Of a stretch of 64,000 nt of DNA, positions 6,874-23,856 are shown in pieces (the stretch's first letter is position 1; every line of letters begins with the position of its first letter). This DNA comes from [Clostridium] clostridioforme AGR2157 (GTDB lineage: Bacteria; Bacillota; Clostridia; Lachnospirales; Lachnospiraceae), in contig NZ_KE384163.1 in the NCBI RefSeq assembly GCF_000424325.1, positions 154,797 through 218,796 of the forward strand, read 5' to 3'. A program made the position numbers and the translations under genes. The notes under the pieces are model-generated. The model was not told where the DNA came from and did no database searches. It saw only the letters and a list, made by a program, of their open reading frames with translations.

Positions 6874-6956
6874 GACAATCCGGAGATATAAACATATACT
6901 ATTAGTGAGGAGGTAATAAACGGAAACTGTGTATGGGGGGATTGGAGGGGAAATCA

Positions 6957-7970
6957 ATGCCTATGGATTCATTTTCATCAGAGGGGATTTTACGGAGGCT
7001 CATCAGGCTTCCCTATCTCCCGCTGTATGTCGGTGTACTGAATGCGGCGGTGGAACTGGATGTCTTTTCGGGCCTTACCCAGCGTAAGAGCGTCAGGGAG
7101 CTTTCAGAGGAGAGAGGGTGGAATGAAGATAACACGCGGTATTTCCTGGACGCCCTTTACTGTCTGGGATTTATCTGGAAAAGGGATGGGATGTACTGTA
7201 ACTGCAGGGAAACGGACCGCTACCTTGTAAAAGGCAGGCCGGAATACATCGGCGGCCATCTGGCCTTTAACTGCGCAGAGGAGTGCATGGGATGCAGGGA
7301 TATTAAGAGGCTGGTTGAAGACGGCCCCGGCGGGGGCCATGGACTGGGAGGGCAGCTGACCTTTGAGCAGTACGTACAGAACATGCGGGAGTCTCAAATG
7401 GGCTTCCGCCAGACTGAGATACAGAGAATGGTAAGAGAACTTCCGGAATATCCGGTAATCAGGAAAATTCTGGATTTAGGCTGCGCAACGGGGCTGCTGG
7501 GCCTGGGAGTGATTGGGGAACGGGAGGATATATCCGGGATTCTCTATGACCGCCCTGCTATGGAACCGGCAATCCGGGAGTCCATCCGTCTCACCGGCCT
7601 GGAAGGGCGGGCGGTTCCTATGACAGGGGATTACCTGGCGGATGATATAGGGGAGGGCTATGACCTGATTATGGCCATAGCCACCTTAAGCTTCGTGGAA
7701 CAGGAGCTGGCCAGCCTTATGAAGAAGCTTTATAAGGCCATGAATCCGGGCGGCGTGCTGCTTTGCTATTCAGAGGGAATCGAACGGGATGGCTCGGGCC
7801 CGTGGGACATGATGCTGGGCTGGCTTCCGTACAACATGCAGGGCTATGACCTTGGATTGAAAAAGAATGAAATAGCAGAGGCTGCCATGGTAGCCGGCTT
7901 CAGGAGCGCTGAGAAACGGACCGGGATCTATTCCACGGGCAATGTGGATGTGGATATATTCAGAAAATAA
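6957..7970 (+). CDS. SAM-dependent methyltransferase with N-terminal winged-helix dimerisation domain
   Basis: About 337 residues. The N-terminal 95 residues (LPLYVGVLNAAVELDVFSGL, then RELSEERGWN) are the dimerisation/winged-helix fold of O-methyltransferases. The SAM-binding motif I is KILDLGCATGLLGLG, and MAIATLSFVEQ plus NPGGVLLCYSEG give the later Rossmann strands. Substrate unknown; relatives act on small hydroxylated or quinone-like molecules. The ATG at 6957 has GGAGGGG 6 bases upstream; an in-frame ATG at 6933 is the alternative and has GAGGAGG at a poorer distance. The gene follows the PBP by 80 bases and may be cotranscribed. Confidence 0.8.
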   Translation: MPMDSFSSEGILRRLIRLPYLPLYVGVLNAAVELDVFSGLTQRKSVRELSEERGWNEDNTRYFLDALYCLGFIWKRDGMYCNCRETDRYLVKGRPEYIGGHLAFNCAEECMGCRDIKRLVEDGPGGGHGLGGQLTFEQYVQNMRESQMGFRQTEIQRMVRELPEYPVIRKILDLGCATGLLGLGVIGEREDISGILYDRPAMEPAIRESIRLTGLEGRAVPMTGDYLADDIGEGYDLIMAIATLSFVEQELASLMKKLYKAMNPGGVLLCYSEGIERDGSGPWDMMLGWLPYNMQGYDLGLKKNEIAEAAMVAGFRSAEKRTGIYSTGNVDVDIFRK

Positions 7971-8016
7971 CTTGGTAAAAAGCCGTAGCCCGGACAGCGA
8001 AGCAGGGAGGTCTCGC

Positions 8017-8045
8017 TTGGCAATGGGTTTATGATATGGTAAAAT
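8017..8045 (+). promoter_or_regulatory. Promoter of the SseB-like gene
   Basis: TTGGCA (8017-8022), 17-base spacer, TAAAAT (8040-8045), with a TGG extension before the -10. It lies 57 bases before the start codon at 8102. Confidence 0.65.
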
Positions 8046-8101
8046 AATAAAGCTGTGTATCATTTGAAAAGAGGGAAAAACCATAAAGGAGAAACAAACA
8101 A

Positions 8102-8872
8102 ATGAAACCGAATGAAACTACAGGAAAACAGGAAATCATGTACCGTCTTAAGAACGCAGGGGAGCTTTACGTTCTGCTTTCCATGTGTACGGGAGAGCCC
8201 TATGTGGTCTGCGACCAGGAAACCTATGATGACGAAATCATTGTTTTCTTTGACGGTCAGGCAGCCATAAAGGAGTCAAAAGAACAGACCGAGGCAGGAA
8301 TACCTGTCAGGCCCATGAAGCTGGAGAACAGGCAGTTCCTGATGTTCTACACCAGCCTTTATACTCTTGGGGTCAATGCGCTGCTGGTAAAAGACGGCGG
8401 GAGAGACTGCCTGATTCAGCTGCAGGACTTTGTGAAGCGCAATAATCAGCAGGGACAGGAGTCGGGGGAGAAGATATGGGTGGAGAATCCGTCCCTTCAT
8501 CTGACCATGCTGTATTACATGCAGGAACTGAGAAGGAAACCGGGGCAGGAGAACCTGCCGCAGATTAAGGAATGGCAGGATGAGATTTCCAATGATTTCG
8601 GCAAGGGCAGTTTCATTGTTCCTGTGGAGAAGGAGGGTAAGGGGCTGGCAGCTGTAAAGGTGAACGAACAGTTATTCCAGGCCATCTTTACAGACATATT
8701 AGAGTTCCAGAGGTTTAACCGGGAGGGAAAACTGCGCCCCCTTGTGGTGACGGCTGACAAGATACCACAAATCATGACAGAAGAGGCAAAGGGCGTGATC
8801 CTCAATCCCATGGGAGTCAGGATGCCTCTGCAGATTAAGAGAACGGCCGGCCAGACGAAACAGAATGCTTAA
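8102..8872 (+). CDS. SseB-family protein
   Basis: 256 residues, soluble, no signal. The N-terminal half (LYVLLSMCTGEPYVVCDQE, then the aligned FYTSLYTLGVNALLV) and the C-terminal GVILNPMGVRMPLQI motif are characteristic of the SseB N-terminal-like fold, a domain of unknown biochemical role found widely in Gram-positive bacteria. The sequence between is charged and helical. It has its own promoter and a GGAGAA site. It ends convergently against the XRE regulator gene. Confidence 0.65.
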   Translation: MKPNETTGKQEIMYRLKNAGELYVLLSMCTGEPYVVCDQETYDDEIIVFFDGQAAIKESKEQTEAGIPVRPMKLENRQFLMFYTSLYTLGVNALLVKDGGRDCLIQLQDFVKRNNQQGQESGEKIWVENPSLHLTMLYYMQELRRKPGQENLPQIKEWQDEISNDFGKGSFIVPVEKEGKGLAAVKVNEQLFQAIFTDILEFQRFNREGKLRPLVVTADKIPQIMTEEAKGVILNPMGVRMPLQIKRTAGQTKQNA

Positions 8873-8886
8873 AATGTGAGAAAAAG

Positions 8887-8914
8887 GCTGCGATGAGGCA
8901 AAACTCACCGCAGC
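8887..8914 (-). terminator. Shared terminator hairpin
   Basis: GCTGCG-a-TGAG, loop, CTCA-c-CGCAGC forms a stem with one mismatch. On the minus strand it is followed by a T-rich tract (bases 8873-8886), so it terminates the XRE gene and probably also stops the plus-strand SseB transcript. Confidence 0.65.
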
Positions 8915-8918
8915 TTGG

Positions 8919-9371
8919 CTACGTTTTAAGCTCAAGGGAAAGTTGGCCGAAATCATCGGGTTTGTCTTTTTGTTTGTCAAGTGACGTCACTTTTTTTGAT
9001 ATTTCGTTTTGGGTTTTGTTGTATTCTTCCTTGGCCCGTTTAAGGATGGCTGCCTGGCCTTCGCGGTATGTATTCTGGAACCAGTAAATGAGCAGGGATT
9101 CGTCTGAAGTCAGAAGCTTGGTGACAGATGCTCCTGCTTCATCCGGGCGAAGCGCAGCAGCAAGGGGCGTTTCCAACGGAATGTCGAAAATGGAATGGAC
9201 GGAAGTGCCAAGTGCCTTTGAAATGGACTCCATGTGCACCATCTTATCCTTCTGGTTTTCCCCGTTTATAATTCTTTTCAAGGTGCTGGCAGGTATGTGT
9301 GTCTCCTTTGATAAGGTTGCCTGGGTCATACCCTTTAAATTCATAAGTGCAATCAGTTTCTCGTTTCTCAC
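8919..9371 (-). CDS. XRE-family helix-turn-helix transcription regulator
   Basis: 150 residues. An N-terminal Cro/CI-type HTH spans about residues 4-58 (MTQATLSKETHIPASTLKRI is the helix-turn-helix). The C-terminal half is charged and helical (AILKRAKEEYNKTQNEISKK) and may oligomerise. Start is GTG at 9371 with GGGGA upstream. It is transcribed away from the polysaccharide deacetylase gene; the 388-base gap between them carries three copies of an 11-mer that may be its operator. Confidence 0.8.
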   Translation of the reverse strand: MRNEKLIALMNLKGMTQATLSKETHIPASTLKRIINGENQKDKMVHMESISKALGTSVHSIFDIPLETPLAAALRPDEAGASVTKLLTSDESLLIYWFQNTYREGQAAILKRAKEEYNKTQNEISKKVTSLDKQKDKPDDFGQLSLELKT

Positions 9372-9503
9372 AGTAAGTCCCCGTTTCCTGGTAATCCCAT
9401 ATTTTATCTATATCAAACCCCGATATAAACCATCAAATTCCTTTCATGGATAATTCTACCATATAAATTAAAATTCTTCAAGAAACGGCATTGATTTGAG
9501 GAC

Positions 9504-9570
9504 ATTTTTTCTCATGATATTTTTTCTCATATTCATTTTAGGAGATTTTGTACGGTACTATTTTTTCTCA
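9504..9570. repeat. Three copies of ATTTTTTCTCA in the XRE/deacetylase control region
   Basis: Exact copies at 9504-9514, 9519-9529 and 9560-9570 (spacings 15 and 41 bases). They fill the middle of the 9372-9759 gene-free stretch, otherwise AT-rich with no clear coding. Read on the minus strand each is TGAGAAAAAAT. They may be operators for the adjacent XRE regulator. Confidence 0.6.
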
Positions 9571-9759
9571 CGTCATTTCGCGCAGTTGTGACGGCTGATA
9601 TCTTTTTGATAGTGGTATCTATTCCTATACGTTTATTGAGTTATTGTGACATATTCTTTCAATTTCTTTAAATCCATGGACAGCACTACTTAATTTGTTT
9701 ACAATAAACAGGCTGGTCAAAGGCTGGCTGCATTTAAAATACACAGGAGACCAGAATTT

Positions 9760-10818
9760 ATGTCAAAGGATACCAAAATGAAGAAACGAATCAGTAAGAC
9801 CAGACAGGCAAAGATGCGGGAGAAGGAATTAAAGTCTACCCTGAAGTTTGGTGTGAAGCTGGTTTTGATTCTGGCAGTTGTGATTGGGTGTGCACAGCTG
9901 TTTTTTTATGGAAAGAATGTGGTGGCGGGCAGGAGCAATGGTCCCGCTGTCCGGATAGCAGCAAAAAACAGCGAAGCAAGGAATAATCAGTCGGATTCAA
10001 TCAAAACAGGAGAACAGGGAAATGTCTTGGGGCCGTCTCTGTCTGATTCTGAAAAAGGCCGGCAGCAGACACCGGAGACCATTGCGCCTTTTGCAGAATC
10101 CAGTGATGGGCCGGGAAACGTGGTGCAGGCCGCCCCGCCCTCCAGTGATGCGTCCTTAGACCCGGCAGGCGGCAAAAATGAGCTGTTCCCTGTTTCCGGG
10201 CCTGCTGACGCCTCTAAGCCCATGATAGCATTTACCTTTGACGACGGCCCTTATTACAGCGTGGATATAAGAATCCTGGACACACTTCAGGCTTACGGGG
10301 GCAGGGCTACCTTTTTTATAGTAGGAAGCCGCGTCAATGACTACAAGGATACCCTTAAGAGAATCCGGGATTCCGGGTCCGAGATAGGAAACCATACATT
10401 CAACCATAAGAATCTGGAAAAGATTTCTCCGGAAGAAGTGGCTTCTCAGATTGAGATGACCAACGATGCGGTGGAGGCTGTAACAGGTTTTCGGCCAAAA
10501 CTGGTGCGTGTCCCCTATGGCGCCTTTAAGAGCCAGGTGCCTGGTCTGGTATCCTACCCCATGATTCAGTGGAATATCGATACGCAGGACTGGTCCAGTA
10601 AGGACAAGGATGCCATTGCCGCATCTGTGCTCTCCCAGGCAAGGGATGGAAGTATTGTGCTGATGCACGACCTTTATCCAGCCACGGCCGAGGCCTTTGA
10701 GACGGTCATCCCCCTGCTGGCTGCCCAGGGATACCAGTTTGTTACGGTCAGCGAGATGTATGCGGCCAAAGGGGTGCCGTTGGAGGCAGGGCAGGTTTAT
10801 TTTAGTATCCCTAATTAA
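9760..10818 (+). CDS. Membrane-anchored polysaccharide deacetylase (CE4, NodB homology)
   Basis: 352 residues: basic N-terminus, one membrane helix (about 30-50), a Ser/Gly/Pro linker to about 150, then a CE4 domain facing outside. All five CE4 motifs are present: TFDDGP (D161/D162), HTFNH (H212, H216), RVPYG, IDTQDW and IVLMHD, so the metal triad Asp-His-His and the catalytic residues are intact. It should remove N-acetyl groups from peptidoglycan or another envelope glycan. Start ATG at 9760 with GGAGA 11 bases upstream. It converges with the helicase gene, only 23 bases away. Confidence 0.93.
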   Translation: MSKDTKMKKRISKTRQAKMREKELKSTLKFGVKLVLILAVVIGCAQLFFYGKNVVAGRSNGPAVRIAAKNSEARNNQSDSIKTGEQGNVLGPSLSDSEKGRQQTPETIAPFAESSDGPGNVVQAAPPSSDASLDPAGGKNELFPVSGPADASKPMIAFTFDDGPYYSVDIRILDTLQAYGGRATFFIVGSRVNDYKDTLKRIRDSGSEIGNHTFNHKNLEKISPEEVASQIEMTNDAVEAVTGFRPKLVRVPYGAFKSQVPGLVSYPMIQWNIDTQDWSSKDKDAIAASVLSQARDGSIVLMHDLYPATAEAFETVIPLLAAQGYQFVTVSEMYAAKGVPLEAGQVYFSIPN

Positions 10819-10841
10819 CAGGGCAGGCAAATATATTTAAG

Positions 10842-12386
10842 TTATCTGGCAATCTGCTTCATACAAATCCAGTAATTCCTTTCAGCGATTGTCTTTGACA
10901 ACTGGATTTTTACAGTACAGTATGCCCTGCCCATGAGCCAGTCCGGCCCTACGATGCCGCGTTCAAAACAGCCTGCTGCCTCGGACAAAAGCGAGACGTC
11001 CGGTTTCGCCCGCCTGAATCGCTGCATGGCAGTTCGGACCTGCCTTTCGTAGGCAGGGTGTGAAAACGTATCATTTTCCCAATGGTAGGACAGCTCACAG
11101 ACCGCGGATGTCTGGGATTCTACGGGAAAATAGGAGGCCTCCTCGGAGGACTCCGCAATATATAGATAGTATAGACTGGCAATCTCTTTCCCCTCGTGCC
11201 GCCGCAGGATACGGCCCAGGCGCTGAATCCGCTGCCGGTTGACCGACGCTGAGGACATGACGATTCCGACGCTGGCGGACGGCACATCAAAGCCCTCGTC
11301 CAGAGCGCGGCAGCTGATGAGAATACGCACTTCGCCGTCACGAAAACGTTCCAGAGCAAGCTTTCTTGCACTGGGATCCATAGCGGAATGGCAGCGCGCG
11401 GCCTGGTTGGGATAGAGACGGTCCAGCTTCTCATACAGGATATCGGCCTGCTTAATCCGCTCACCGAAAATAATAATCTTTGCGCTTTTATCTAAAAGTC
11501 CTATGAGCTTTATGACACACTGAAGACGGGACATGGCTTCGCTGGTAAGATTTTTGCGTTTGTGAGACGAGTTTAAGTATGACCGGGCTAAATATGCGTA
11601 GTCCCCTTTTTCATTAGCAATCTGGCAGAGCCTGCGGAAAAAGGCGGAGCGGTTCAGCCCTTTTAAGCTTGGGTAATGGGAGATTAGCTTAAGGAACATT
11701 TTCCTCATATTGCCGCTCAGCTCCTCATACTCCGCTTTTTCCTGAGGGGTAAAAGAAAGCGCGATATGAAAGGCGGCGTAAGGGCAAAGCGTCTCATCTT
11801 CTTCTGCCTCTTTAAGTCCATACCGGAAGATCTCCGGGCCCAGGGCGGGAATGAGAACGGACGCGTTTTCTGGCCGGTTTAGCCCGGGCGTGGCGGACAG
11901 CCCCAGAGATGCATACTGCTCAGGGCAATTTTTAGTAAAGGGAAGGAAGTCAAATATCTTTCGATTTTCGTCTCCGGTATAGCGGTGGCATTCATCTGCG
12001 ATTAAAAAAACCGTGAATCCCTCTTCAAGATCCCTGACAATATGGCGGGCAAGAGAATAACGGGCGGAATTGATTACGTAAATCATAAACAGACGGTCCG
12101 GTGTGTCTCTTTGGCCGCTGTAATAGAAACCAATGTCCTGGCGGGATACGGTCCCGTCAAAAAAATTCCGTATGGCAGCACCCCACTGCGCCAGCAAAGA
12201 TGCAGTGGGAACCACTATTTTAATCCTGAGATCAGACACGGCTGTCTGCTCTCTAAGCAGCTCTCCGGCGGCTAAGGCCAGATACGTCTTTCCCGCTCCT
12301 GTAACAACATTGACGATTCCATGGCAGTGCTTTTTCTTCCATTCTTTTAAGCACTTCTCCTGCCAGAGATATAACTGATATTCCAT
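10842..12386 (-). CDS. Superfamily 2 DEAD/DEAH-type helicase
   Basis: 514 residues. Motif I is NVVTGAGKTYLA, motif II IADECHRY (DECH box), LSATPG is motif III, and the C-terminal RecA fold has FGERIKQADILYEKL, SCRALDEGFDVPS and motif VI QRIQRLGRILRR. The layout (short N-terminal Q-tip YQLYLWQEKCLKEW, compact lobes, about 60-residue C-terminal tail) is that of SSL2/COG1061 helicases seen in phage-defence loci. ATG at 12386 has AGGAGG 8 bases upstream; the reading back to 12485 has none. It diverges from the ATPase operon at 12568, sharing a 181-base control region, and is probably one functional unit with it. Confidence 0.88.
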   Translation of the reverse strand: MEYQLYLWQEKCLKEWKKKHCHGIVNVVTGAGKTYLALAAGELLREQTAVSDLRIKIVVPTASLLAQWGAAIRNFFDGTVSRQDIGFYYSGQRDTPDRLFMIYVINSARYSLARHIVRDLEEGFTVFLIADECHRYTGDENRKIFDFLPFTKNCPEQYASLGLSATPGLNRPENASVLIPALGPEIFRYGLKEAEEDETLCPYAAFHIALSFTPQEKAEYEELSGNMRKMFLKLISHYPSLKGLNRSAFFRRLCQIANEKGDYAYLARSYLNSSHKRKNLTSEAMSRLQCVIKLIGLLDKSAKIIIFGERIKQADILYEKLDRLYPNQAARCHSAMDPSARKLALERFRDGEVRILISCRALDEGFDVPSASVGIVMSSASVNRQRIQRLGRILRRHEGKEIASLYYLYIAESSEEASYFPVESQTSAVCELSYHWENDTFSHPAYERQVRTAMQRFRRAKPDVSLLSEAAGCFERGIVGPDWLMGRAYCTVKIQLSKTIAERNYWICMKQIAR

Positions 12387-12493
12387 AAAAGCCTCCTGTA
12401 GGGCGGCTGCCGCTTTTGTTATTATGGCCGCATTATAAGTGCCTATAGTATACCATATCCAACCACAGCGGACATCACATTTCACATATAATA

Positions 12494-12522
12494 TTGTAAA
12501 ATTCGCATTTTTCTAGTATACT
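12494..12522 (+). promoter_or_regulatory. Promoter of the coiled-coil/ATPase operon
   Basis: TTGTAA (12494-12499), 17-base spacer, TATACT (12517-12522), 45 bases upstream of the ATG at 12568. On the opposite strand of the same 181-base gap a TATAAT (12432-12437 read on the minus strand) may serve the helicase, with a weaker -35. Confidence 0.65.
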
Positions 12523-12567
12523 GGACTGAGAAAAACAACAGTCACACAGACGGTAAGGAAGGGACAT

Positions 12568-13335
12568 ATGAATTACGAAGAATTATACAGCGAATATCAG
12601 GTTTTAGAGAAAGAAATGAAGGACAAGATCAATGGGGTTCAGAAGCTTCATAAAATGATTGCCAAAGAAATGGAGAACGGGGATTTAAAGAGTTTTCGCC
12701 GCGACATCGCACTTCTGGAGTCAGCGGTGGCTGAGGAAGCCCGCGTTTTGAGCGCTATGAAGGAACTGGAAGCAGGCTTTAACTCCCGGGAATATTTTGG
12801 GGATGGTGAATTTGCAGCCCAGATGCTGGAGGCCTGCGGGGAACTGGGCGTGGATGTGAAAGGCGAGTTCCCTGTCTATGAGATGTTTCCCTATAGGGTG
12901 AAAATCGACGCGGAGAACCAGGATCTCTATCTGGACCGGAAGAAGGTACAGTGTATGCGTCCTAAGAGCTTTGCCAGGCAGGTAAAGGCCGGACAGGACA
13001 AGCTGATGAAGGCGTCCTTTAACGCCCTTACATTTGCCAATGAACTGGCTGATGTCTATGACCTGGCGCTTCTGAAATTGAAAAGGCAGCCCGAAGCTGA
13101 TATTTACCTGACTAATTTGTATAAATTCCTGGCGCCTATGGGAAGATTCCGCAGAGACTATGACCAGCAGAGCTATGCCTTTGATTTAGCCAGACTTTAC
13201 GGCTCCGGAATTAAGGAAATTAAAGACGGGCGGAGAATCCAGTTCGGCCCCAGCCGTGAGGGAAATAAAGCAATCCGAATTTTGGACAGCCAGGGACGGG
13301 AAGAGTACCTGTCAACGATCCGCTTTTTCCGGTAA
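12568..13335 (+). CDS. Unknown protein with N-terminal coiled coil, partner of BrxD-like ATPases
   Basis: 255 residues, cytoplasmic. Residues 1-70 are strongly helical with heptad-like Leu/Ile spacing (EKEMKDKINGVQKLHKMIAK and following), predicting a coiled coil. The C-terminal part contains basic and aromatic clusters and ends with RRIQFGPSREGNKAIRIL. I recognise no catalytic motif and no nuclease or methylase signature. It is first in an operon with two P-loop ATPases (33 bases to the next gene), the position that a TerB-type or adaptor protein holds in related ATPase/helicase loci. Function unknown. Confidence 0.7.
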   Translation: MNYEELYSEYQVLEKEMKDKINGVQKLHKMIAKEMENGDLKSFRRDIALLESAVAEEARVLSAMKELEAGFNSREYFGDGEFAAQMLEACGELGVDVKGEFPVYEMFPYRVKIDAENQDLYLDRKKVQCMRPKSFARQVKAGQDKLMKASFNALTFANELADVYDLALLKLKRQPEADIYLTNLYKFLAPMGRFRRDYDQQSYAFDLARLYGSGIKEIKDGRRIQFGPSREGNKAIRILDSQGREEYLSTIRFFR

Positions 13336-13368
13336 AAGACGTTTTATTTTCAATAAGGAGAAAACCGT

Positions 13369-14634
13369 ATGACGGACGAATACAGAATGACCGGATTAGA
13401 ACCGGAAACTCCGGCTGACCGGCTTGGGTTTGAAAAGAAACGATTATCCGCGGGAGAGGCGCCGGATGATACCGAACTTCTTCGCCAGCTGTCAGCAGGC
13501 ATGAATTTCATTACCGATTTTTGGCAGAAGCACTATCTTGAAGAGTATATACGGGAAGGCGGAAGCAAAATCAAGTTCGTAACCGGCAGGCCCGGAAGCG
13601 GGAAAAGCCACCTGCTTAAATATACAGCCATGACAGCCAGGGAGAAAGGTTACGTGACAGCGGGATTTTCCGCCCGTGATATCTGGATTCACGATTTTAA
13701 GGAGATTTACATTCAGGCGCTTTGCCAGACTGACATTCTGGACTGCTTAAGGCGCTGCGGCATACAGATTATTAAGAATCTGGGCTTTACCCCGGAGGAG
13801 ATACCAAAAGGGCTGACCTTTATGGATTATTTGTCCCAGAACGATTTGGGGGACGCCATCACGCGCAGGGAGATCCGCCTTCAGCTTAAGTCCATGTTTT
13901 TGGAGAATCCATTGATCGATAATAATTTCGCGCTGGCCTGCAGTTTGCTGACCGGCGGGATTTTAGGCCATCCTTTTCTGGAAGACCAGAACCGGCAGAT
14001 GCTGTTATCCTGGCTGGAGGGGGACAAAAGCTTAAAGCTTTCCTCCATACGGAGTCTCGGCCTTTCGCCTGTCCGCATTACAAAATACAACGCCAGGCAC
14101 ATGCTCCGGTCACTGGCCGAGGTAATCCGCATGGCGGGGTATTCAGGGCTGTTCATTACCGTGGATAATTTGGAGATTCTGTTGAGCCGTTCCAGCTTAG
14201 ACCCTGTCCACTATACAAAGCTGAAACGGGAAGATACATATGAAAGCATCCGGCAGCTGATTGATGACATTGACAGCATGAAGAACATTATGTTTGTATT
14301 TGCCTTTGAACGGGAACTTCTGGATCATGACAGCGCCGGACTTAAATCTTATCAGGCGCTGTGGATGCGAATTCAGAATGAAGTGGTGGGCGAACATTTT
14401 AACCGATTTGCCGATATCGTGGATTTAGACCGCCTGGCGGCGGAGGTGTATACGCCGCAGATCCTGATGGAGATGTCAAGGAAGCTGGCCGACACCTACA
14501 CGCGGCTTGGAGACACCGCCCGTCCCATCAGCCTGGAGACATGTAAGGCCCTGATAAGTCGGGCTAAGAACGGTAGTGTTTCCCTGCCGAGGCTGGTGAA
14601 CATGGCAACGCTGGGAGGTGAAGATAATGTTTGA
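13369..14634 (+). CDS. BrxD/DUF2791-like P-loop ATPase, first copy
   Basis: 421 residues. Walker A is TGRPGSGKSH (about residues 72-81) and Walker B GLFITVDNLEIL (about 263-274), where Asp is followed by Asn instead of the usual Glu. The layout, with a long helical insert between the Walkers and a post-B MKNIMFVFAFEREL sensor strand, matches the BREX-system ATP-binding (BrxD, PF10923-like) family. AAGGAG precedes the ATG by 8 bases. The stop overlaps the next gene's start by 8 bases, so the two ATPases are probably made in a fixed ratio and may form a hetero-oligomer. Confidence 0.78.
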   Translation: MTDEYRMTGLEPETPADRLGFEKKRLSAGEAPDDTELLRQLSAGMNFITDFWQKHYLEEYIREGGSKIKFVTGRPGSGKSHLLKYTAMTAREKGYVTAGFSARDIWIHDFKEIYIQALCQTDILDCLRRCGIQIIKNLGFTPEEIPKGLTFMDYLSQNDLGDAITRREIRLQLKSMFLENPLIDNNFALACSLLTGGILGHPFLEDQNRQMLLSWLEGDKSLKLSSIRSLGLSPVRITKYNARHMLRSLAEVIRMAGYSGLFITVDNLEILLSRSSLDPVHYTKLKREDTYESIRQLIDDIDSMKNIMFVFAFERELLDHDSAGLKSYQALWMRIQNEVVGEHFNRFADIVDLDRLAAEVYTPQILMEMSRKLADTYTRLGDTARPISLETCKALISRAKNGSVSLPRLVNMATLGGEDNV

Positions 14635-15826
14635 TTTTGAAGCGCGGCATGTAATAGAGGCTCTGCGTTCAGGAATTCCATCCCGGGCGGTGGGGCAGTA
14701 TTTCTCAGAAGCACGGCCTGGAATTATGAAGGAGATATCCGGCCATTTAGATGAGACCTGTGAGACGGGAAAATCCAAGGGAATGATAATAGCGGGTAAA
14801 TATGGGGAGGGAAAGACCCATCTTTTAAACACTGTTTTCAGCATGGCCCATTCCAACAATATGGTGGTATCGTACCTCTCTCTGAGCAAGGAAACGCCCT
14901 TTGACAAATTATACCTGGTCTATCAGAAGCTGGTAAACAATACCTTTCTTCCAAAGCGTGTGCAGCCCGGTTTTACACAGATTTTAGAGAAGATGACTCC
15001 GGGAAGTCCGGCTGCTAATGAGCTTTTGCTCTATGCGGCCAAACATTTGGAGACAGACAAACTTTATTATCTGCTGCGGGCCTATTTAAACACAGAAGAT
15101 CTGGATGAGAAGTTCATGCTTCAGGCGGACCTGGAAGGTGATTTTATAGCAAACGTGCTGCTCAAGCAGATATACAGGCGTATTTATAATGAGCGGGTGA
15201 AATATAATGTCAATTTCAGCAAAACAAAGCACTGTAGAGACTATTTTTCCTTTTTGAGCCGTCTTTTCCGTCTGATGGGATATAATGGCTGGGTCATTCT
15301 GATTGATGAGACGGAGCTGATCGGCCGCTTAAGCAAGAAAGCCCGGCTGAACGCGTATCGGAATATGGCCCAGTTCCTGCTCCCTGATGAGCGGCTGGAA
15401 GGAATCTATACCCTGTTCGCACTTGGCGCTTCCTATACGGAGGACGTCATAGAGACGAAGCATGATTATGAGAACCTGGAAGAAATTTATCCTGAGCAGC
15501 AGGAACCGGTTCGGACTGTCTTAAATCTGATTACCAGGGCCCAGCAGCTGGCCCCACTGACAGACAGTGAGATTCGGGAGGTCTTAAAAAAGATTCAGGT
15601 GTTCCACGGCCGGGCTTATGACTGGAATCCAAATATCTCCATGGGTACCATTCTGGCGGCCACTCAGTCAGGCGGTTATCTTCTGCGTACAAAACTGCGC
15701 GCCGCCATCGAGCTGTTAGATCAGCTGTACCAGTACGGAGAGGCGGGAAACACACGGATCAATGAGCTGGGTCAGGAAACCTTTGAGGAAGATGTGCCGT
15801 CTCTGGAGGAGTTTGACAGCCATTAG
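14627..15826 (+). CDS. BrxD/DUF2791-like P-loop ATPase, second copy
   Basis: 399 residues. Walker A AGKYGEGKTH (about 47-56) and a full Walker B VILIDETELIGR with the catalytic Glu, followed by a FALGAS sensor strand: a BREX-type ATP-binding protein. Unlike its upstream neighbour it keeps the Asp-Glu pair, so it is the better candidate for the hydrolytic subunit. ATG at 14627 follows GGGAGG by 8 bases; a GTG at 14618 overlaps that site and is less likely. It is last in the operon and ends before a strong terminator. Confidence 0.8.
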   Translation: MFDFEARHVIEALRSGIPSRAVGQYFSEARPGIMKEISGHLDETCETGKSKGMIIAGKYGEGKTHLLNTVFSMAHSNNMVVSYLSLSKETPFDKLYLVYQKLVNNTFLPKRVQPGFTQILEKMTPGSPAANELLLYAAKHLETDKLYYLLRAYLNTEDLDEKFMLQADLEGDFIANVLLKQIYRRIYNERVKYNVNFSKTKHCRDYFSFLSRLFRLMGYNGWVILIDETELIGRLSKKARLNAYRNMAQFLLPDERLEGIYTLFALGASYTEDVIETKHDYENLEEIYPEQQEPVRTVLNLITRAQQLAPLTDSEIREVLKKIQVFHGRAYDWNPNISMGTILAATQSGGYLLRTKLRAAIELLDQLYQYGEAGNTRINELGQETFEEDVPSLEEFDSH

Positions 15827-15875
15827 TTCAGAATATCCTGATTGCAGATATGCAGAACGGATACCTGGAGTTAAG

Positions 15876-15916
15876 AATAAGCGGTTGCAGGCTGAAAAAG
15901 GCGGCAGCCGCTTATT
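15876..15916 (+). terminator. Terminator of the ATPase operon
   Basis: A 13-bp stem (15876-15888 with 15904-15916, one G-U pair) followed by a T-rich tail, 50 bases after the ATPase stop codon. Confidence 0.75.
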
Positions 15917-15963
15917 TTATATGTGAAGAAAGCTCCTTCACAAGAAGGAGATTCCCTGGTGCT

Positions 15964-16059
15964 TTATTTTAAAATAATCCCCTTTGAGTTCTGCTGTTTC
16001 CGATAGGAGCTGGGCGACATCTTCATCAGCCGCTTAAAGGCCTTTGAGAAGATGGCGGG
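15964..16059 (-). pseudogene. C-terminal remnant of an AraC-family regulator
   Basis: On the minus strand 16059-15964 encodes AIFSKAFKRLMKMSPSSYRK and a short tail ending at TAA (15964-15966). This is the last helix-turn-helix of an AraC regulator. Coding breaks off at about 16058-16062, exactly where alpha-galactosidase coding begins on the other strand. In intact loci the regulator and a GH36 gene are divergent; here both 5' ends and the promoter region are gone. Confidence 0.75.
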
Positions 16060-17410
16060 ACGGAGGCAGTGATTGTCTTCTCTGAAGACGGATTAAACGG
16101 AATGAGCCAGACCTTCCACAAGCTGTACCGTCAAAGGCTGGCAAGGGGATACTGGAGAGATCGGGAGCGCCCGATTCTAATCAACAACTGGGAGGCAACT
16201 TATTTTGACTTCAACGAGGATTCCATCGTGGAAATTGCAAAGACGGCGAAGAAGGCCGGTATTGAGATGTTTGTACTGGATGACGGCTGGTATGGGACGA
16301 GGAATGACGACAGGCAGGGCCTGGGAGACTGGTCTGCCAATCTAAATAAGCTGGAGCACGGAATAGCAGGTTTATCCAGACGAATCGAGGAAGAGTGCCA
16401 GATGAAATTTGGTCTCTGGTTCGAGCCGGAGATGGTCAATGAGAACAGCAATCTGTTCCGCAGCCACCCAGATTACCGGATTGAAACACCGGGCCGCAGG
16501 GTTTCCCATGGAAGATACCACAAGAAAAGAGGTGGTGGACTGCATCTACAGCCAGATGGAGAACCTTTTGGTGAATTCCAGGGTATCCTATATCAAATGG
16601 GATATGAACCGGAGCATCACTGAGTGCTTCAGCAGCGGCTGGCCGGCAGAGCAGCAGGGGGAAATTTTCCACCGGTATATCCTGGGTGTGTATGATTTGT
16701 ATGACAGGCTTACAAAACGGTTTCCTGAAATCTTATTTGAGTCCTGTGCCAGTGGCGGCGGGAGATTTGACCCAGGCATGCTTTACTATGCGCCGCAGAC
16801 CTGGACGAGCGATAACAGCGATGCCGTGGAGCGTATCCGGATTCAGTACGGAACCAGCATGGTGTATCCCTTAAGCAGCATGGGTGCCCATGTGTCTGTC
16901 ACTCCGAACCACCAGATGTTCAGAAACACACCGTTGGCAACCAGGGCAAATGTGGCATATTTTGGTGTCTTTGGCTACGAATTAGACATTAATAAGCTGT
17001 CTGAAGAGGAACAGGAAGAAATCAAACAGCAGATTTCATTTGTAAAGAAGTACAGAAAGCTGATTTACCAGGGGACGTTCTACCGCCTGCTCAGTCTCTT
17101 TGAAGGAAACATGGCAGCATGGATGGTTGTCTCTGATGATAGGAAAGACGCAGTCATGGGTTATTATAAAATTTTAAATGACGTGATTTGTCCCTACAGA
17201 AGGTTAAAGCTCCGCGGTCTGGACGCCGGCATGGATTATGTGATAGAGGGAAGAAACGGCTCCTATTCAGGAAAAGAACTGATGAATGCAGGGCTAATCA
17301 CCACCGATGCGTCTGCTGGTCAGGTGCTGGACGGCGGCGAGACGTGTACGGATTTCTGGTCTAAGATTTATGTGCTGCATGGAACAAAGAGGGAAGAACA
17401 AGTATTATGA
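16060..17410 (+). pseudogene. GH36 alpha-galactosidase, N-terminally truncated and frameshifted
   Basis: Coding starts abruptly at 16060 with TEAVIVFSEDGLNGMSQTFH, which corresponds to the region just before the catalytic barrel of a roughly 730-residue GH36 enzyme, so about 300 N-terminal residues are missing. PILINNWEATYFDFN and FVLDDGWYG follow. Near 16515 the frame changes: VSHGRY in the first frame continues as TTRKEVVDCIYSQMENLL in the second, with about 5-6 residues lost, a deletion of 3n+2 bases. The nucleophile motif YIKWDMNR and the acid/base motif SDNSDAVERI survive in the second frame. It has no ribosome site. Not expected to make an active enzyme. Confidence 0.85.
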
Positions 17411-18045
17411 ATGTAGAAAAAAAGAGACGTTTGGCAGCCAGGACAGAAATGATGCTTATCGGAAACCTTCTGATGGGAACGGCGGTGGGTTTCCTCAGAA
17501 TGTCCAGGTTCGGTACGGATCCTTTTACGTGCATGAATCTTGGCGTTAGCGGTACCCTGCGGATTCAATTCGGAACCTATCAGCTATTAGTGAACGTTCT
17601 TCTCTTCCTGCTGGTCCTTGTGAAGGCAAAAGACTGCATCGGGGCTGGGACGATTGTCAATATGGCCGGGATTGGTTATATAGCGGACATCATAGTTGTG
17701 ATGCTTACAAAAGCGGTAGGAGATGTCGCCCTCCTGCCCATGGCGGTTCGCGTCATGATGATGGCTGGGGCAGTGGTGCTTTGCTCCTTCGCAGCGGCTA
17801 TGTATATGGAGGCCAACATGGGAATCGCTGTCTATGACGCGCTGGCCGTTATCATAGAGAGAAAAACCGGCGGGAAAATCCCCTTTAAAATTGCCAGAGT
17901 TGCCACAGACTTTGTCTGCGTCATTGTGGGCTTCGCTTTTGGAAGTATTGTAGGGGCTGCCACCGTGATTACTGCCGCTTTTATGGGGCCGCTAATCCAA
18001 TGGTTCCAGAAGAATTGGATAAAAAAGGTGATAGAGAAAGTTTAG
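17407..18045 (+). CDS. YczE/YyaS/YitT-type integral membrane protein
   Basis: 212 residues with about five hydrophobic helices. The N-terminal ARTEMMLIGNLLMGTAVGFL followed by RFGTDPFTCMNLG matches the YczE/YyaS family of membrane proteins of unknown function. The ATG overlaps the end of the broken alpha-galactosidase by 4 bases, so in the intact ancestor it was the next cistron of that operon. Whether it is still transcribed depends on readthrough, because the ancestral promoter upstream of GH36 has been deleted. Confidence 0.75.
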   Translation: MNVEKKRRLAARTEMMLIGNLLMGTAVGFLRMSRFGTDPFTCMNLGVSGTLRIQFGTYQLLVNVLLFLLVLVKAKDCIGAGTIVNMAGIGYIADIIVVMLTKAVGDVALLPMAVRVMMMAGAVVLCSFAAAMYMEANMGIAVYDALAVIIERKTGGKIPFKIARVATDFVCVIVGFAFGSIVGAATVITAAFMGPLIQWFQKNWIKKVIEKV

Positions 18046-18061
18046 ATACGTATCCTCAATT

Positions 18062-18106
18062 AATCCGGCTTCGGAGCAGGAAAACTGTTCCCGGGTCGGA
18101 TTTTTT
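18062..18106 (+). terminator. Terminator after the YczE-like gene
   Basis: AATCCG (18062-18067) pairs with CGGATT (18097-18102) around an imperfect inner stem and is followed by a run of six T (18101-18106). Confidence 0.6.
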
Positions 18107-18309
18107 CATGATAGAGGTGCGTTTTCCCAGCCAGGGGACACCCTTACAAATGCAGGCGCAGAACCCTTCGATTTCCCCGAAGTAACCACAATCGATATTA
18201 CACGGAACATACCGGTCTTATTCCCCAGCAGTTCCAGACCGAGCAGGATATAGTCCGCCAGCAGCCGGTTGAATTCAGGTTTATTCGGGATCCCATAAGC
18301 AGTGCTCAC
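18106..18309 (-). other. Possible decayed coding fragment in the 18107-18437 gap
   Basis: A minus-strand reading from a GTG at 18309 gives STAYGIPNKPEFNRLLADYI and LLGLELLGNKTGMFRVISIV before turning nonsensical. The amino-acid texture looks protein-like but I recognise no family, and it lacks a ribosome site. It sits between a terminator and the glv promoter. The rest of this gap shows nothing else. Confidence 0.25.
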
Positions 18310-18437
18310 TTCACGCAGGGGCTTTCGTTCAGGATGGTCAGCGCCTATTGAACATCAAAAGATATGCTGTGAAAAAAATTACTTATATAGTTATAAACAA
18401 TAAAATGGGGGATTGATTTCAGAATATAAAGAAAATA

Positions 18438-18489
18438 TTTACACACACCGCAGAATTCACTATAATGCAGGCATCACATGAAATCATGT
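18438..18489 (+). promoter_or_regulatory. Promoter and palindromic operator of the alpha-glucoside operon
   Basis: TTTACA (18438-18443), 17-base spacer, TATAAT (18461-18466). Just downstream lies the inverted repeat ACATG-aaat-CATGT (18476-18489), placed where a repressor would block the start of transcription. ATGCAGGCAT overlapping the start point is a second small palindrome. The RpiR regulators encoded after the PTS gene are the obvious candidates to bind. Confidence 0.7.
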
Positions 18490-18517
18490 AAAAATGAAAA
18501 GAGGAAGGGCACTATTT

Positions 18518-19874
18518 ATGAAAGAATTCAATGTATGTATCGTCGGCGGCGGCAGCACCTATACCCTGGGATTTTTGAAATCCTTTGTCCGTCTGCGGGA
18601 GGAGTTCCCGCTGAAGAAGCTGGTACTGTTTGATATCGACCCGGAGCGCCAGGAGCCTATCGGCAAATACGGCGAGATCCTCTTCAGTGAGCGCTTCCCT
18701 GAGCTGGAGTTCTCCTACACCACCGACATCAACGAGGCGTACACCGGCATGGACTTCGTCTTTATGCAGATGCGGGCGGGCGGCCTGGACATGCGGGCCA
18801 AGGACGAGCACATCCCCTTGAGCATGGGCATGATCGGCCAGGAGACCTGCGGTGCCGGCGGCATGGCCTACGGCATGCGCTCCTGCGTGGACATGATCAA
18901 GGCTGTCCACGACATCCGCCGCCTGGCCCCCGCCGCCTGGATTCTCAACTACTCCAACCCCGCCGCCATTGTGGCCGAGGCTCTGCGCCGGGAGTTCCCC
19001 GGGGACAAGCGCCTGCTGAACATCTGCGACCAGCCCGAGAACGTGGTTCGCTCCTGCTCCCGCCTGCTGGGCTGCGACTGGGAGGACCTGGATCCCGTGT
19101 ACTTCGGTCTGAACCACTACGGCTGGTTCACCAACATGTACGACATGAAAACCGGCAAGGATCTGATGCCCGAGATCCGCAGGCGCATCAAGGAGAACGG
19201 TTTCCTGCCCCAGGACGCCGAGCAGCGGGACCAGTCCTGGCTGGATACCTATGGCATGGTTCAGACCATTATGAACGACTTCCCCGACTTCCTGCCCAAC
19301 ACCTATGACCAGTACTACCTCTACCCCGAGTACAAGGCCAGCCACCTCAACCCCGACTACACCCGGGCCGACGAGGTGAAGGAGGGTCTTCACTGAGTGC
19401 AGGGAGGTCATTGCCGCCGGCAAGCTGGGCGACCGCTTCGACGCCATCTCCGACGCCCACGCCGAGATGATGATAAAGGTTGCCGAGTCTATCGCCTTCA
19501 ACAAAAACGACCGCCATATTATTATCGTGGAGAACAACGGTGCCATCGCCAACATGCAGGATGACGCCATGGTGGAGGTGGCCTGCGAGCTGGGCGCCAA
19601 CGGTCCCCGGCCCTTGGGCGTGGGCAATATCCCCCAGTTCCACCTGGGCCTGCTGGTGAATCAGGTCTCCGTAGAGAAGCTGCTGGTGGACGCCTTCTTC
19701 GAGCACTCCTATCAGAAGGCCCTGGAGGCATTTACCCTCAGCCGCCTGGTGGGCGACGCCAAGAAAGCCCGCAAGGTGCTGGACGCCCTCATTGAGGCCA
19801 ACCAGGGCATGTGGCCTGAGCTGACTGATCCGAAGGGCAGAGCAAGAACAGAGAGAGTAAGAATCGGAGGTTAA
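18518..19874 (+). pseudogene. glvA: GH4 6-phospho-alpha-glucosidase, frameshifted
   Basis: GAGGAAGGG precedes the ATG at 18518. The first frame carries the NAD-binding VGGGSTYTLG, the metal Cys in NICDQPEN and His in FGLNHYGWF, all GH4 hallmarks, then stops at 19396 after DEVKEGLH. The second frame resumes at once with VFTECREVIAAGKLGDRFDA and the GH4 segment IIIVENNGAIANM, ending at 19874. Alignment by eye suggests a small deletion of a few codons plus a frame change at about 19387. Full length would be near 450 residues. GH4 enzymes split phosphorylated alpha-glucosides using NAD+ and Mn2+. GC-rich third positions set this gene and the PTS apart from their neighbours. A sequencing error is possible but would have to lose several codons. 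Confidence 0.85.
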
Positions 19875-19878
19875 AACG

Positions 19879-21939
19879 GTGCAAAAAAACAAGATTATGG
19901 ACTTCTTCTCCGCATTGGGACGAAGCCTTCTGATGCCCATCGCCGCCCTGGCGGCTTGCGGCATCTTCCTGGGCCTCTCCTCCGCGCTGATGAAGGCCCA
20001 GGTACAGGAGGCCTTGCCCCTCCTGACCCAGACCCACATCCACTTCGTCATCTACGTCATCAACAAGGTCTCCGGCGTGGTTTTCACCCTGATCCCTGTC
20101 TTGTTTGCTATCTCCATCGCCTTCGGCATGGTGAAGGAGGAGAAGGAGATCGCCGCTTTTGCGGGCTTCATCGGGTACTATACCTTCCTGGTGGCCTCCG
20201 CCGCCATGATCAACAGCGGCTTCGCAGATTTAAGCGCTCTGAAAATTTCCAACATCCTGGGTGTGGAGACCATGGACATGGGCGCGGTGGCCGGTATTGT
20301 CATAGGCCTAGTGGCGGCAAAGCTCCACGACAAGTATCACAAGATCACCTTCCCCGTGGCCATCTCCTTCTATGGCGGCAAGCGGTTTGTGGCCCTGGCG
20401 GTCATGCTGGCCTCCACGGTGGTGGGCCTGGTGGCACCCTTCGTCTGGACCCCAGTGTCCCTGGCCATTAACAGCCTGGGCGGAATCATCCAGGCCTCGG
20501 GCATCCTCGGCGTATTCGGCTACGGCTTCCTGGAGCGGTTGCTGATCCCCACCGGCCTGCACCATGTGCTCAACGGGATTTTCCGCACCACCGCCATCGG
20601 CGGCGTATACGAGGGGGTGGAGGGCTGCCTGAACATCTTCCTCCAGTTTGTGGACAAGGTGCCTCTCTCCGAGCTGGATCCCTTCACCATCTTCCTGGGC
20701 CAGGGCAAGATGCCCATGATGATGTTCGGACTGCCGGCGGCGGCGCTGGCCATCTACCAGACCTCCCCGGAGGAGAAAAAGCCCAAGGTCAAAGCCCTGA
20801 TGATTGCCGGCGTAGCAGCCAGCGTGGTGTCCGGCATCACCGAGCCTCTGGAGTTCTCCTTCATGTTCATTGCCCCCCAGCTCTTCCTGTTTCACGCGGT
20901 GATGGGAGGTCTGTCTTTCGCCCTCATGGCGGTGCTGAATGTCATCATCGGCAACACCGGCGGCGGCCTCATCGACTACCTGATCTGGGGCGTGTTCCAG
21001 CCCGGCTCCCACTGGTACTGGGTCATCGTGGTGGGCATCCCCTTCGCGCTCATCTATTACATCGTGTTCAAGCACTACCTGTCCAAGAAGAACATCTCCA
21101 TCGACGTGGCGGAGGACGAGGAGGAAGAGGACGCCTCCCTCAGCATGGATGAGCAGCAGAAGGTCAAGGCCTACCAGATCATCGAGGGCCTGGGCGGCGT
21201 GGAGAACATTGCCGCGGCCAACAACTGCCTGACCCGCCTGCGCGTGGATCTGGTTGACCCGTCCAAGGTGCGGGAGGACATCCTGAAGAAAACAGGCGCG
21301 TCCGGCTTCATCCGCCCCAGCGAGAAGCACATCCAGGTGGTCTACGGCCCTAAGGTGGAAGCCATTGCCGCCAATGTGCGCGAGTGCTTGAAGGCCGGCC
21401 CGGCGGCGAAGGCGTTCATGGAGAAGATGCCTGCGGCGGCGGATGCCGCTCCCGCGAAGGCGTCAAAGAAGGCCCCGGCCCAGAAGCTGGAGCTGAAGGC
21501 CCCGGTGGGCGGCAAGGTGCTGCCCATGAGCGAGGCAAAGGACGAGAATTTCGCCAATCTGATCCTGGGTGACGGCGTGGTGATCTGCCCCGCGGAGAAT
21601 GTGATCGTCGCCCCCTGCGACGGCGTGCTCACCCACTGCTCGGAGGACAACAAGCATGCCGTCGGCCTGCGCAGCGACAGCGGTCAGGAGGTCCTGATCC
21701 ATGTGGGCGTGGATACGGTGGCCCTGAACGGCGAGGGCTTTGAGCAGCTCAAAGCCGAGGGCGAGAAAATCAAGCTGGGCGAACCGATCCTTCGTTTCTC
21801 CAGAAAGTTCATCGAGTCGAAGAAGCTCTGTTCGGATGTCATGGTCATCCTCATTGAGGACGAGGACCCGGTGGTGGCGGAGTACGTCACCGGCATCACG
21901 GCGGAAGCGGGCAGAACCACGGTGGCGAAAATCGGATAA
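19879..21939 (+). CDS. PTS alpha-glucoside (maltose-type) transporter, fused EIICBA
   Basis: 686 residues. Domains in order: EIIC membrane domain (about 1-400, with the FGYGFLERLLIPTGLHHVLN and GITEPLEFSFMF signatures of the glucose/maltose superfamily), EIIB (about 430-515, phospho-Cys450 in NNCLTRLR) and EIIA (about 540-680, phospho-His608 in VLIHVGVDTV). It imports and phosphorylates an alpha-glucoside for the GH4 enzyme encoded 4 bases upstream. Start is GTG at 19879 with GGAGG 8 bases before it. Codon use is strongly GC-ending, unlike flanking genes, a sign of transfer from a higher-GC gut clostridium. Intact, unlike glvA. Confidence 0.92.
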   Translation: MQKNKIMDFFSALGRSLLMPIAALAACGIFLGLSSALMKAQVQEALPLLTQTHIHFVIYVINKVSGVVFTLIPVLFAISIAFGMVKEEKEIAAFAGFIGYYTFLVASAAMINSGFADLSALKISNILGVETMDMGAVAGIVIGLVAAKLHDKYHKITFPVAISFYGGKRFVALAVMLASTVVGLVAPFVWTPVSLAINSLGGIIQASGILGVFGYGFLERLLIPTGLHHVLNGIFRTTAIGGVYEGVEGCLNIFLQFVDKVPLSELDPFTIFLGQGKMPMMMFGLPAAALAIYQTSPEEKKPKVKALMIAGVAASVVSGITEPLEFSFMFIAPQLFLFHAVMGGLSFALMAVLNVIIGNTGGGLIDYLIWGVFQPGSHWYWVIVVGIPFALIYYIVFKHYLSKKNISIDVAEDEEEEDASLSMDEQQKVKAYQIIEGLGGVENIAAANNCLTRLRVDLVDPSKVREDILKKTGASGFIRPSEKHIQVVYGPKVEAIAANVRECLKAGPAAKAFMEKMPAAADAAPAKASKKAPAQKLELKAPVGGKVLPMSEAKDENFANLILGDGVVICPAENVIVAPCDGVLTHCSEDNKHAVGLRSDSGQEVLIHVGVDTVALNGEGFEQLKAEGEKIKLGEPILRFSRKFIESKKLCSDVMVILIEDEDPVVAEYVTGITAEAGRTTVAKIG

Positions 21940-22738
21940 AGCGGCAAACGGCGGACTCACGGTTCAGGAGTCCGCCGTTTCGGCTGTTTCGACTGGTTCC
22001 CGTTTTTTCTGCGCCGTCAGCTCGATGAGAATCTGGATTACGGTGAAAAATACGGGAATTGATATCCGTATGCTGGTATTCCTCGTTCAGATCGTTTGTA
22101 CAGACCGTAATGGTACTGTAGGGGATCAGAGAAGATTCCCGGTTGCTGGTAAGCAGAACCGTAGTCAGCCCCCGCTTCTTTGCCACCTCAAAGGGCCGCA
22201 AATACCGCTCCCCGCGTCCTCTGGCGGTCATGACCAGGAGGACTGCGTTATCGTTCATGTTTTGAACCAATCCGTTGAGCTGGTTCTCCCATTCGATCAG
22301 AATAGAGGCATAATCCAAAGAATTGAGTACGATTTGCAGGTATCTGGCCGGGAGGGCGCTGAGATTGGTCCCGTAGATATACAGAGGCCGGTTGGAGGTC
22401 AGCAGCTCCGTGATTTCCTCCAGCTGCCGGATATTCAGGGCGGCAATGCTGTCTTGAAAGCGCGCCATGCTGCGGCTGATGTACTCATCAGCGTAGAAGG
22501 GCGCCATTTTGCCTGCGCGCAGCTCGCTGCGCAGCAGGTACTTAAAATCGTTGTAGCCGCTGAGCCCAAGCTTTTGACAGAAGCGGACAATCGTAGCATT
22601 AGAAGTGTATAACTGTGCGCAAAGATCGCTCAGCGTCATATGTATGACAGCAGAGGAATATTCCTCAAAATAAGATAAGATTATTTTTTCAGTTTCCGTT
22701 AGTGGGAGCTGATGGGCTTTTTCAAATAGTGAGAGCAT
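21896..22738 (-). CDS. RpiR-family regulator (HTH + SIS), frameshifted near its 3' end
   Basis: Start ATG 22738 with GGAGGA upstream. Residues 1-80 form the RpiR HTH (TSNATIVRFCQKLGLSGYND), followed by a SIS sugar-phosphate-binding domain (YIYGTNLSALPARYLQIV). After DINSRIF the frame as read gives nonsense (HRNPDSHRADG). Adding one base to the A5 run at 22046-22050 restores FTVIQILIELTAQKKREP and a stop at 21964-21966, inside the loop of the terminator shared with the PTS gene. So either a one-base homopolymer error or a real late frameshift. It should control the glv operon by sensing a sugar phosphate. It overlaps the upstream RpiR gene by 17 bases. Confidence 0.8.
   Translation of the reverse strand: MLSLFEKAHQLPLTETEKIILSYFEEYSSAVIHMTLSDLCAQLYTSNATIVRFCQKLGLSGYNDFKYLLRSELRAGKMAPFYADEYISRSMARFQDSIAALNIRQLEEITELLTSNRPLYIYGTNLSALPARYLQIVLNSLDYASILIEWENQLNGLVQNMNDNAVLLVMTARGRGERYLRPFEVAKKRGLTTVLLTSNRESSLIPYSTITVCTNDLNEEYQHTDINSRIFHRNPDSHRADGAEKTGTSRNSRNGGLLNRESAVCRFIRFSPPWFCPLPP
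21946..21980. terminator. Bidirectional terminator between PTS and RpiR genes
   Basis: A 13-bp perfect stem (21946-21958 with 21968-21980), 9-base loop, between two convergent genes. Confidence 0.75.
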
Positions 22739-23543: not shown

Positions 23544-23829
23544 AGATATAAACCTCACTGTATCTTTCCTTGGCAAAAAGTATAGCAAAAGTTGTTTTGG
23601 TTTTCAATACGCTTTTTCTGCTAGAGACAAGAGCCCAATATCCAAATCTTACATTCCCCCTTGACAATAGCTTTATAAAAATCACTTTGATAGTTTAATG
23701 CTAAATCGTCCATACATCTTCCTCGTTCCGATAGTCTGTTTGGACAATTATATCATGGAATATATTCAAAATGAAGATGTATTTTTTCATTCAAGGGAAT
23801 ATTTATAAAAAATCAAGTATATTGGCTAA
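23544..23829. other. Gene-free AT-rich stretch upstream of the RpiR pair
   Basis: 286 bases that should contain the minus-strand promoter of the two RpiR genes. I see no coding and no confident promoter call. Confidence 0.4.
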
Positions 23830-23856
23830 GGGCAGACATTTGTTCTGTCCTTTTTT
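23830..23856 (+). terminator. Orphan terminator-like hairpin
   Basis: GGGCAGA (23830-23836) pairs with TCTGTCC (23844-23850, one G-U), followed by six T. No intact plus-strand gene precedes it, so it probably belongs to a deleted gene. Confidence 0.5.

Follow-up and report, generated by a model that had tools for sequence, protein, structure and literature searches.

BREX type 2 has recurrent pairings of BrxD with a helicase, and Shango likewise combines an ATPase with a helicase (PMC12839542, PMC10250203, in the parts available). BrxD is described as an ORC-Cdc6 AAA+ ATPase without additional DNA-binding domains, and its role in BREX type 2, for which helicase loading was suggested, is given as uncharacterized in the accessible part of the source (PMC12839542). 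The locus compared here with these systems lies in a stretch of 64,000 nucleotides from Clostridium clostridioforme AGR2157, called the window below.

The locus was made of four open reading frames in window positions 10842-15826. A gene for an SF2 helicase/translocase of 514 aa with an XPB/PbeA-like core (HEL, 10842..12386, minus strand) diverged from three plus-strand genes, encoding a 255-aa protein regarded as an adaptor of a new family (CC, 12568..13335) and two BrxD-like AAA+ ATPases (A1, 421 aa, 13369..14634; A2, 14627..15826). Reading frames and Pfam matches confirmed the arrangement proposed in the earlier note, a helicase diverging from an operon of one unknown protein and two P-loop ATPases, except that the module ended at 15826 and not at 15916. 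The HEL frame was open to 12485, and its start was most likely the ATG at 12386 rather than the GTG at 12485, since homologue matches began about there and AGGAGG lay just upstream on the minus strand. A2 would count 399 aa from the ATG at 14627 or 402 aa from the GTG at 14618; the ATG was the most likely start because the 8-nt overlap with A1 that it creates was the commonest one (24 of 35 loci) and because the GTG sat within a GGGAGG resembling the A2 ribosome site, as it did in five near relatives. The 181-bp gap between HEL and CC (12387..12567) probably holds shared promoters: four sigma-70-like sites were observed in 12300-12620 versus 1.1 ± 1.0 in shuffles, which makes the shared control region claimed earlier plausible. 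HEL/CC gaps at 38 other divergent loci ranged from 83 to 596 bp, with starts chosen automatically.

HEL displayed a helicase core shared with several known proteins (Pfam ResIII, 1.8e-19; Helicase_C, 2.6e-17). The best of its 42 PADLOC matches was PbeA of the CxC ABC-ATPase systems PbeABCD (1.8e-60), restricted to the helicase part (PbeA 249-637 of 672). HEL differed from PbeA in lacking its HKD/PLD nuclease part, with no PLD family among its eight Pfam matches and no recognized nuclease domain, and CC, A1 and A2 had no match to PbeB, PbeC or PbeD. SngC, the Shango helicase model, was absent from the best 25 of these 42 PADLOC matches. The best solved relatives of HEL were archaeal XPBII/RAD25 (E 4.3e-47, profile), a likeness of the helicase core; HEL nevertheless stood far under the cut-off of the XPB equivalog NF045503 (66.4 vs 610 bits), and its partners differed from those of XPB.

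Both ATPases were assigned to the BrxC/BrxD family PF10923 (A1 107 bits, A2 90 bits, cut-off 22.2), and the window's genome contained no PF10923 matches beyond these two. Neither was assignable to SngB of Shango: A1 and A2 reached 71 and 42.5 bits with the SngB model, compared with 520-684 bits for the SngB genes of ten genomes in a 199-genome draw from the phylum, in which window A1 and A2 scored 48 and 28 bits. In two of the SngB neighborhoods (L148, L149), SngB stood between a first gene of 519 or 649 aa and one resembling a helicase. In a 63-row tree, obtained by a quick method with SH-aLRT support only and displaying several long branches, a single branch set all 25 A2 apart from the other rows (support 98), 22 of the 25 A1 formed one clade (support 100; a clade of all A1 was unsupported as a whole), and ten SngB and three BrxD rows formed a separate clade (support 97). 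The remaining three A1 were deep-branching (L111, L112, L145).

The third protein, CC, was predicted to encompass a helical hairpin (residues 3-69), an alpha/beta part (about 73-150) and a winged-helix-like part (about 150-255), its model containing beta strands beside helices. Window CC had no significant match in Pfam or NCBIfam, nor a 21-row CC set in PHROGs; its three weak Pfam matches did not include TerB, and TerB was not among the best 25 of 63 families matched by 32 CC homologues (E ≤ 1). Helical Pfam families matched by some of these homologues (down to 7e-4), as well as PADLOC AbiEii (0.0026), were taken as noise. Comparison of the whole model with known folds was filled by coiled-coil hairpins, and no PDB structure matched at E ≤ 0.001 with Foldseek. 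The end of the protein showed weak fold similarity to the winged helices of ORC and Cdt1. TerB-like folds were not among the matches listed for this end, which carries no weight against a TerB fold.

Judged by these sequence comparisons, the cassette is neither plain Shango nor a known BREX type, in agreement with the earlier note, which had named a TerB match of CC as the finding that would make the locus plain Shango; this was tested, and none was found. As in Shango, an ATPase of PF10923 is accompanied in the cassette by an SF2 helicase and one further protein; the differences are CC in place of TerB, two ATPases of separate clades, an XPB-like helicase and a usually divergent gene order. 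With BrxD-BrxHI of BREX type 2 the cassette shares the tight linkage between the genes for an ORC/Cdc6-type ATPase and an SF2 helicase; in contrast to that system, it contains two BrxD-like proteins and the new CC, without BrxC/PglY, PglX, PglZ or PglW (BrxC/PglY, PglZ and a methyltransferase were absent from the four cassette proteins), and its ATPase clades stand apart from BrxD. The locus could still be a Shango/BREX-2-like defense in which BrxD-like ATPases only support the helicase and CC replaces TerB or PglW, with nothing new in principle. The Pfam family common to all these ATPases and the recurrent pairings cited above (PMC12839542, PMC10250203, as far as available) are in line with this explanation, as is a plasmid-borne relative of CC-A1-A2 (L111) with a BrxHI/SngC-like helicase (291 and 248 bits). 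It appears rather unlikely against the clades separating 25 of 25 A2 and 22 of 25 A1 from SngB and BrxD, the unequal motifs of the two ATPases, the missing TerB match of CC (for the homologues, among the matches listed), and a helicase whose best matches were PbeA and XPB. In the mostly open-access literature searched, partly accessible, neither CC-A1-A2 nor a pair of BrxD-like proteins within a CRISPR locus was found described, which agrees with the earlier view of an undescribed module; the available parts of PMC12839542, PMC10853773, PMC6459918, PMC12458937, PMC11096173 and PMC10250203 contained no such module.

The two ATPases differed in their catalytic motifs. Window A1 combined an intact Walker A (GRPGSGKSH) with an Asp-Asn Walker B (VDNLE), while A2 displayed GKYGEGKTH and an Asp-Glu Walker B (IDETE). 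This difference, already noticed from the DNA alone, proved general across homologues, the catalytic Walker-B Glu being missing in 73 of 74 A1 rows and present in 69 of 69 A2 rows; these are counts of rows and not of species, since second copies entered the motif table (L036/L102, L035/L103 and L051/L104 are possibly one genome each, taken twice from two collections). The residue following the Walker-B Asp in A1 was Asp in 57 rows, Asn in 14, and Glu, His or Gly in one row each, the row with Gly also lacking the Asp. Two of the 69 A2 rows showed an odd Walker A (GEDKT). The A1 Walker A was lost at all four CRISPR-linked loci and at both SNF2-linked loci (L143, L144), and both motifs were kept in the three deep-branching A1; an alignment check found Walker A intact in two plasmid A2 and one A1. 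The catalytic Glu of A1 appears to have been lost first, followed by Walker A in at least two lineages. As window A1 retains Walker A, ATP binding would still be expected there. Among solved structures, A2 was best matched by DnaI (E 0.011).

The four genes recurred together across genomes. Scanned for CC, the GTDB species genomes yielded 53 loci, most of them from Lachnospiraceae or Clostridiales/Eubacteriales and one from Sphaerochaeta; 52 of them and eight others made up the 60 loci examined, the partial match L056 being left out and only first copies of possible duplicates being included. All four genes were adjacent in 50 of the 60, in the window's layout at 48 (46 as HEL- CC+ A1+ A2+ and two the same reversed) and co-directional as CC-A1-A2-HEL at two. 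They were full length in 47 of these 50, HEL meeting the contig end in L004, L007 and L076. Among the rest, L041 and L055 contained all four genes, some of them split, the contig end was reached in six (L025, L035, L043, L050, L054, L109), L005 had a helicase fragment only, and L108 had no HEL. In one draw of 299 genomes from the window's family, CC was found in nine, and A2 (>500 bits) and HEL (E<1e-60) in eight each, all within those nine; A2 was missing from G683, probably because CC is cut at the contig start there, and HEL from G711. Another 31 genomes of the family gave weak A2-profile matches only (57 bits or less), which Shango or other genes of PF10923 could account for. Across the 48 loci with four full-length genes, all six gene pairs diverged together (Mantel r 0.86-0.94; 0 of 999 permutations as high), at median pairwise identities of 0.52 for HEL, the fastest-diverging of the four, 0.62 for CC, 0.69 for A1 and 0.76 for A2. 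Near-related loci shared flanks (e.g., L044, L046, L049, L050), so there were fewer insertions than loci. Adjacency, near-complete co-occurrence and co-divergence mark a real recurrent four-gene unit, in place of the failure to co-occur elsewhere that the earlier note had named as fatal to a system, and co-function of HEL, CC, A1 and A2 is well supported.

Across the phylum, CC-A1-A2 persisted while its neighbors changed. A wide CC profile matched 23 of 398 genomes of the phylum, 18 of which contained full-length matches (19 places, E<1e-50); the remaining five were fragments or weak and were not counted as cores (a 60-aa fragment at 4.7e-12 in G102; the N-terminal part only, E 4e-7 to 8e-4, in G214, G230, G306 and G430). 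A1 and then A2 followed CC at 19 of 19 places, with A2 running off the contig in L074 and split into two frames in L084. The neighbor was an XPB-like HEL at five places (window, L073-L076) and CRISPR-cas genes at four, namely type I-D with Cas10d, Cas3d, Cas7d, Cas1, Cas4 and a 44-copy array (L077), type I-B with Cas8b, Cas7b, Cas3 and Cas1 (L078), an I-A-like set with Cas8a, Cas7, Cas3 and Cas6 (L079), and Cas6 near a contig end (L080); no array was found in the parts of L078-L080 searched. An SNF2-type helicase with a protein of about 190 aa was found at two places (L143, L144), BrxL at one (L082), and at one (L145) a BrxHI/SngC-like helicase of 424 aa, apparently truncated, near a DUF1156 methyltransferase and a PLD-helicase. 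Three places had an HTH protein (L081, with BrxC and PglX further along; L085; L110, with a DNA methyltransferase), and one each had unknown genes (L084), a contig end (L083) or no helicase (L204). By gene order, CC-A1-A2 is the invariant core and the helicase the exchangeable part.

A chromosomal repair or replication-conflict module, in which an XPB-like translocase and its loader would clear damaged or stalled forks without any part in defense, accords with XPB/RAD25 as the closest solved relatives of HEL, with flanks that looked ordinary by eye in the window's family, and with the lack of a recognized nuclease. Its weak point is distribution: CC presence was patchy (2 of 17 genomes of the genus, 9 of 299 of the family), and core relatives lie in CRISPR-cas operons and on plasmids. 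An IS-linked loss of the core also argues against it. A genome of the same genus (G004) was 99.3% identical over window 6094-12390 and retained HEL, with window 12391-28534 (about 16 kb) missing and replaced by 1.7 kb carrying a transposase, which we take to be of the IS110 type; no CC was found in that genome. That genome thus does without the core and tolerates HEL on its own, though the region upstream of HEL is gone. A clean empty site was not found in the two same-genus genomes in which it was sought, G004 and G015, the latter matching in the left flank only. Taken together, we consider a repair role unlikely.

Two of 72,556 plasmid records contained A2 matches, Desulfomonile tiedjei pDESTI.01 and an Aulosira laxa plasmid, and phage records contained none. 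Both plasmids displayed the order CC-A1-A2-helicase with a BrxHI-like helicase; the Aulosira laxa core directly followed PglZ, a BrxD-like gene and a helicase, and one plasmid core lay near ParA, AbiE and an integrase. Such contexts, and a compact unit at many different chromosomal sites, would suit a selfish or mobile-element maintenance cassette, acting in the stability of a plasmid or integrative element or in exclusion of competitors. The rarity of plasmid matches and the absence of phage matches make this very improbable, and no flank family occurred in more than 13 of the 60 loci, so that no integrase travels throughout with the cassette. A chance adjacency of helicase and ATPases, despite their occasional parting (G711, G004), is already contradicted by all four genes standing together at 50 of the 60 loci with few shared flanks, the near-complete co-occurrence and the co-divergence, and is hardly credible.

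The explanation we favor, at about an even chance of being right, is that the cassette is one unit with a role in defense, in which DNA motors are loaded or licensed by a complex of the ORC/Cdc6 AAA+ type. CC, A1 and A2 would form a heteromeric ORC/Cdc6-type AAA+ assembly, in which A2 would bind and hydrolyze ATP, and A1 would bind ATP but be slow or dead in hydrolysis, serving as a structural or regulatory partner. By way of its coiled-coil hairpin and its predicted winged-helix region, CC would link the ATPases to DNA, to the motor or to both, supplying the winged-helix part that BrxD-type ATPases lack. The assembly would recognize a DNA state and then load or license its partner motor, here HEL, which would run along or open the target DNA and keep it from replicating or becoming established. 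The core of other lineages would work with different motors or with CRISPR-Cas, the client being the motor encoded beside it. Unequal AAA+ subunits with a winged-helix adaptor acting on a motor would, on this hypothesis, recall ORC/Cdc6 with Cdt1 and the DnaC/DnaI loaders; the cassette's clients differ in being SF2 motors and not replicative hexamers, and the likeness proposed is one of working principle.

The case for a loader is indirect: its main argument is that different motors stand beside an unchanging core, to which the ATPase motifs add. A defense role is suggested by the neighborhoods of distant core relatives, in CRISPR-cas operons and beside BREX genes; points in its favor are the CRISPR, BREX and BrxL neighbors, the patchiness of occurrence and the fast divergence of the helicase, and the ordinary-looking flanks in the window's family weaken it. 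The recurrence of the core beside other motors and within CRISPR gene clusters points to a hitherto undescribed mechanism for activating motors that process DNA, probably directed against invading DNA.

More tentatively, and with considerable doubt, CC-A1-A2 might be a portable machine for licensing motors, a counterpart in bacteria of ORC-Cdc6-Cdt1 that is plugged into varied motors and type I CRISPR-Cas. It would combine a catalytic ATPase with a pseudo-ATPase in decay and an adaptor of winged-helix type, and would serve XPB-like, SNF2, BrxHI-like and BrxL motors; in CRISPR-Cas loci, the core may gate Cas3 recruitment or spacer uptake.

In the cassette, a new adaptor and a pair of BrxD-like proteins that differ in competence make up a minimal recurrent unit free of the extensive BREX apparatus, so that the role of this ATPase family becomes testable in a four-gene system. 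The CC profile offers a search tool for further such systems. If the core is indeed portable, one control unit would be common to otherwise unrelated immune systems. If it controls Cas3, SNF2, XPB-like and BrxL motors, immune systems that are catalogued separately would be linked by a common step, and an accessory control layer would be predicted in some type I CRISPR-Cas loci.

In the window, a Cro/C1-type HTH regulator gene (8919-9371, minus strand) lies to the left of the cassette, and a putative alpha-galactosidase-like gene (16069-17410) borders it on the right. The latter occupied two frames (16069-16623 and 16409-17410), its N-terminal part seemingly missing, and is probably a decayed gene.

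In a relative 99.3% identical (G004, same genus; locus L179), the core, which encodes the adaptor protein CC and the BrxD-like ATPases A1 and A2, was absent together with about 16 kb at the site of a transposase, presumably of IS110 type. This transposase lay at about 10000-11700, immediately upstream of the intact XPB-like helicase gene.

A different three-gene set with a BrxD-like ATPase, at L147 (7248-12132), comprised a SAP-domain protein, the ATPase and a helicase-like gene; no Pfam match to TerB, the SngA domain of Shango, was obtained at E<=0.01 in the SAP-domain protein, encoded first.

Core loci elsewhere carried other neighbors. At L084 (3901-10506), four genes without a PADLOC match followed the core: an unknown one of 437 aa, one that on inspection by eye resembles Hsp70, and two large ones that are likewise unknown. 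Between A2 and the SNF2-type helicase, L143 (9899-10477) and L144 (10858-11415) encoded mutually similar proteins of about 190 aa without Pfam match. Within one clade, an HTH protein roughly 350-420 aa long was encoded alongside the core (L081:10464-11717, L085:8988-10058 and L110:10761-11798).
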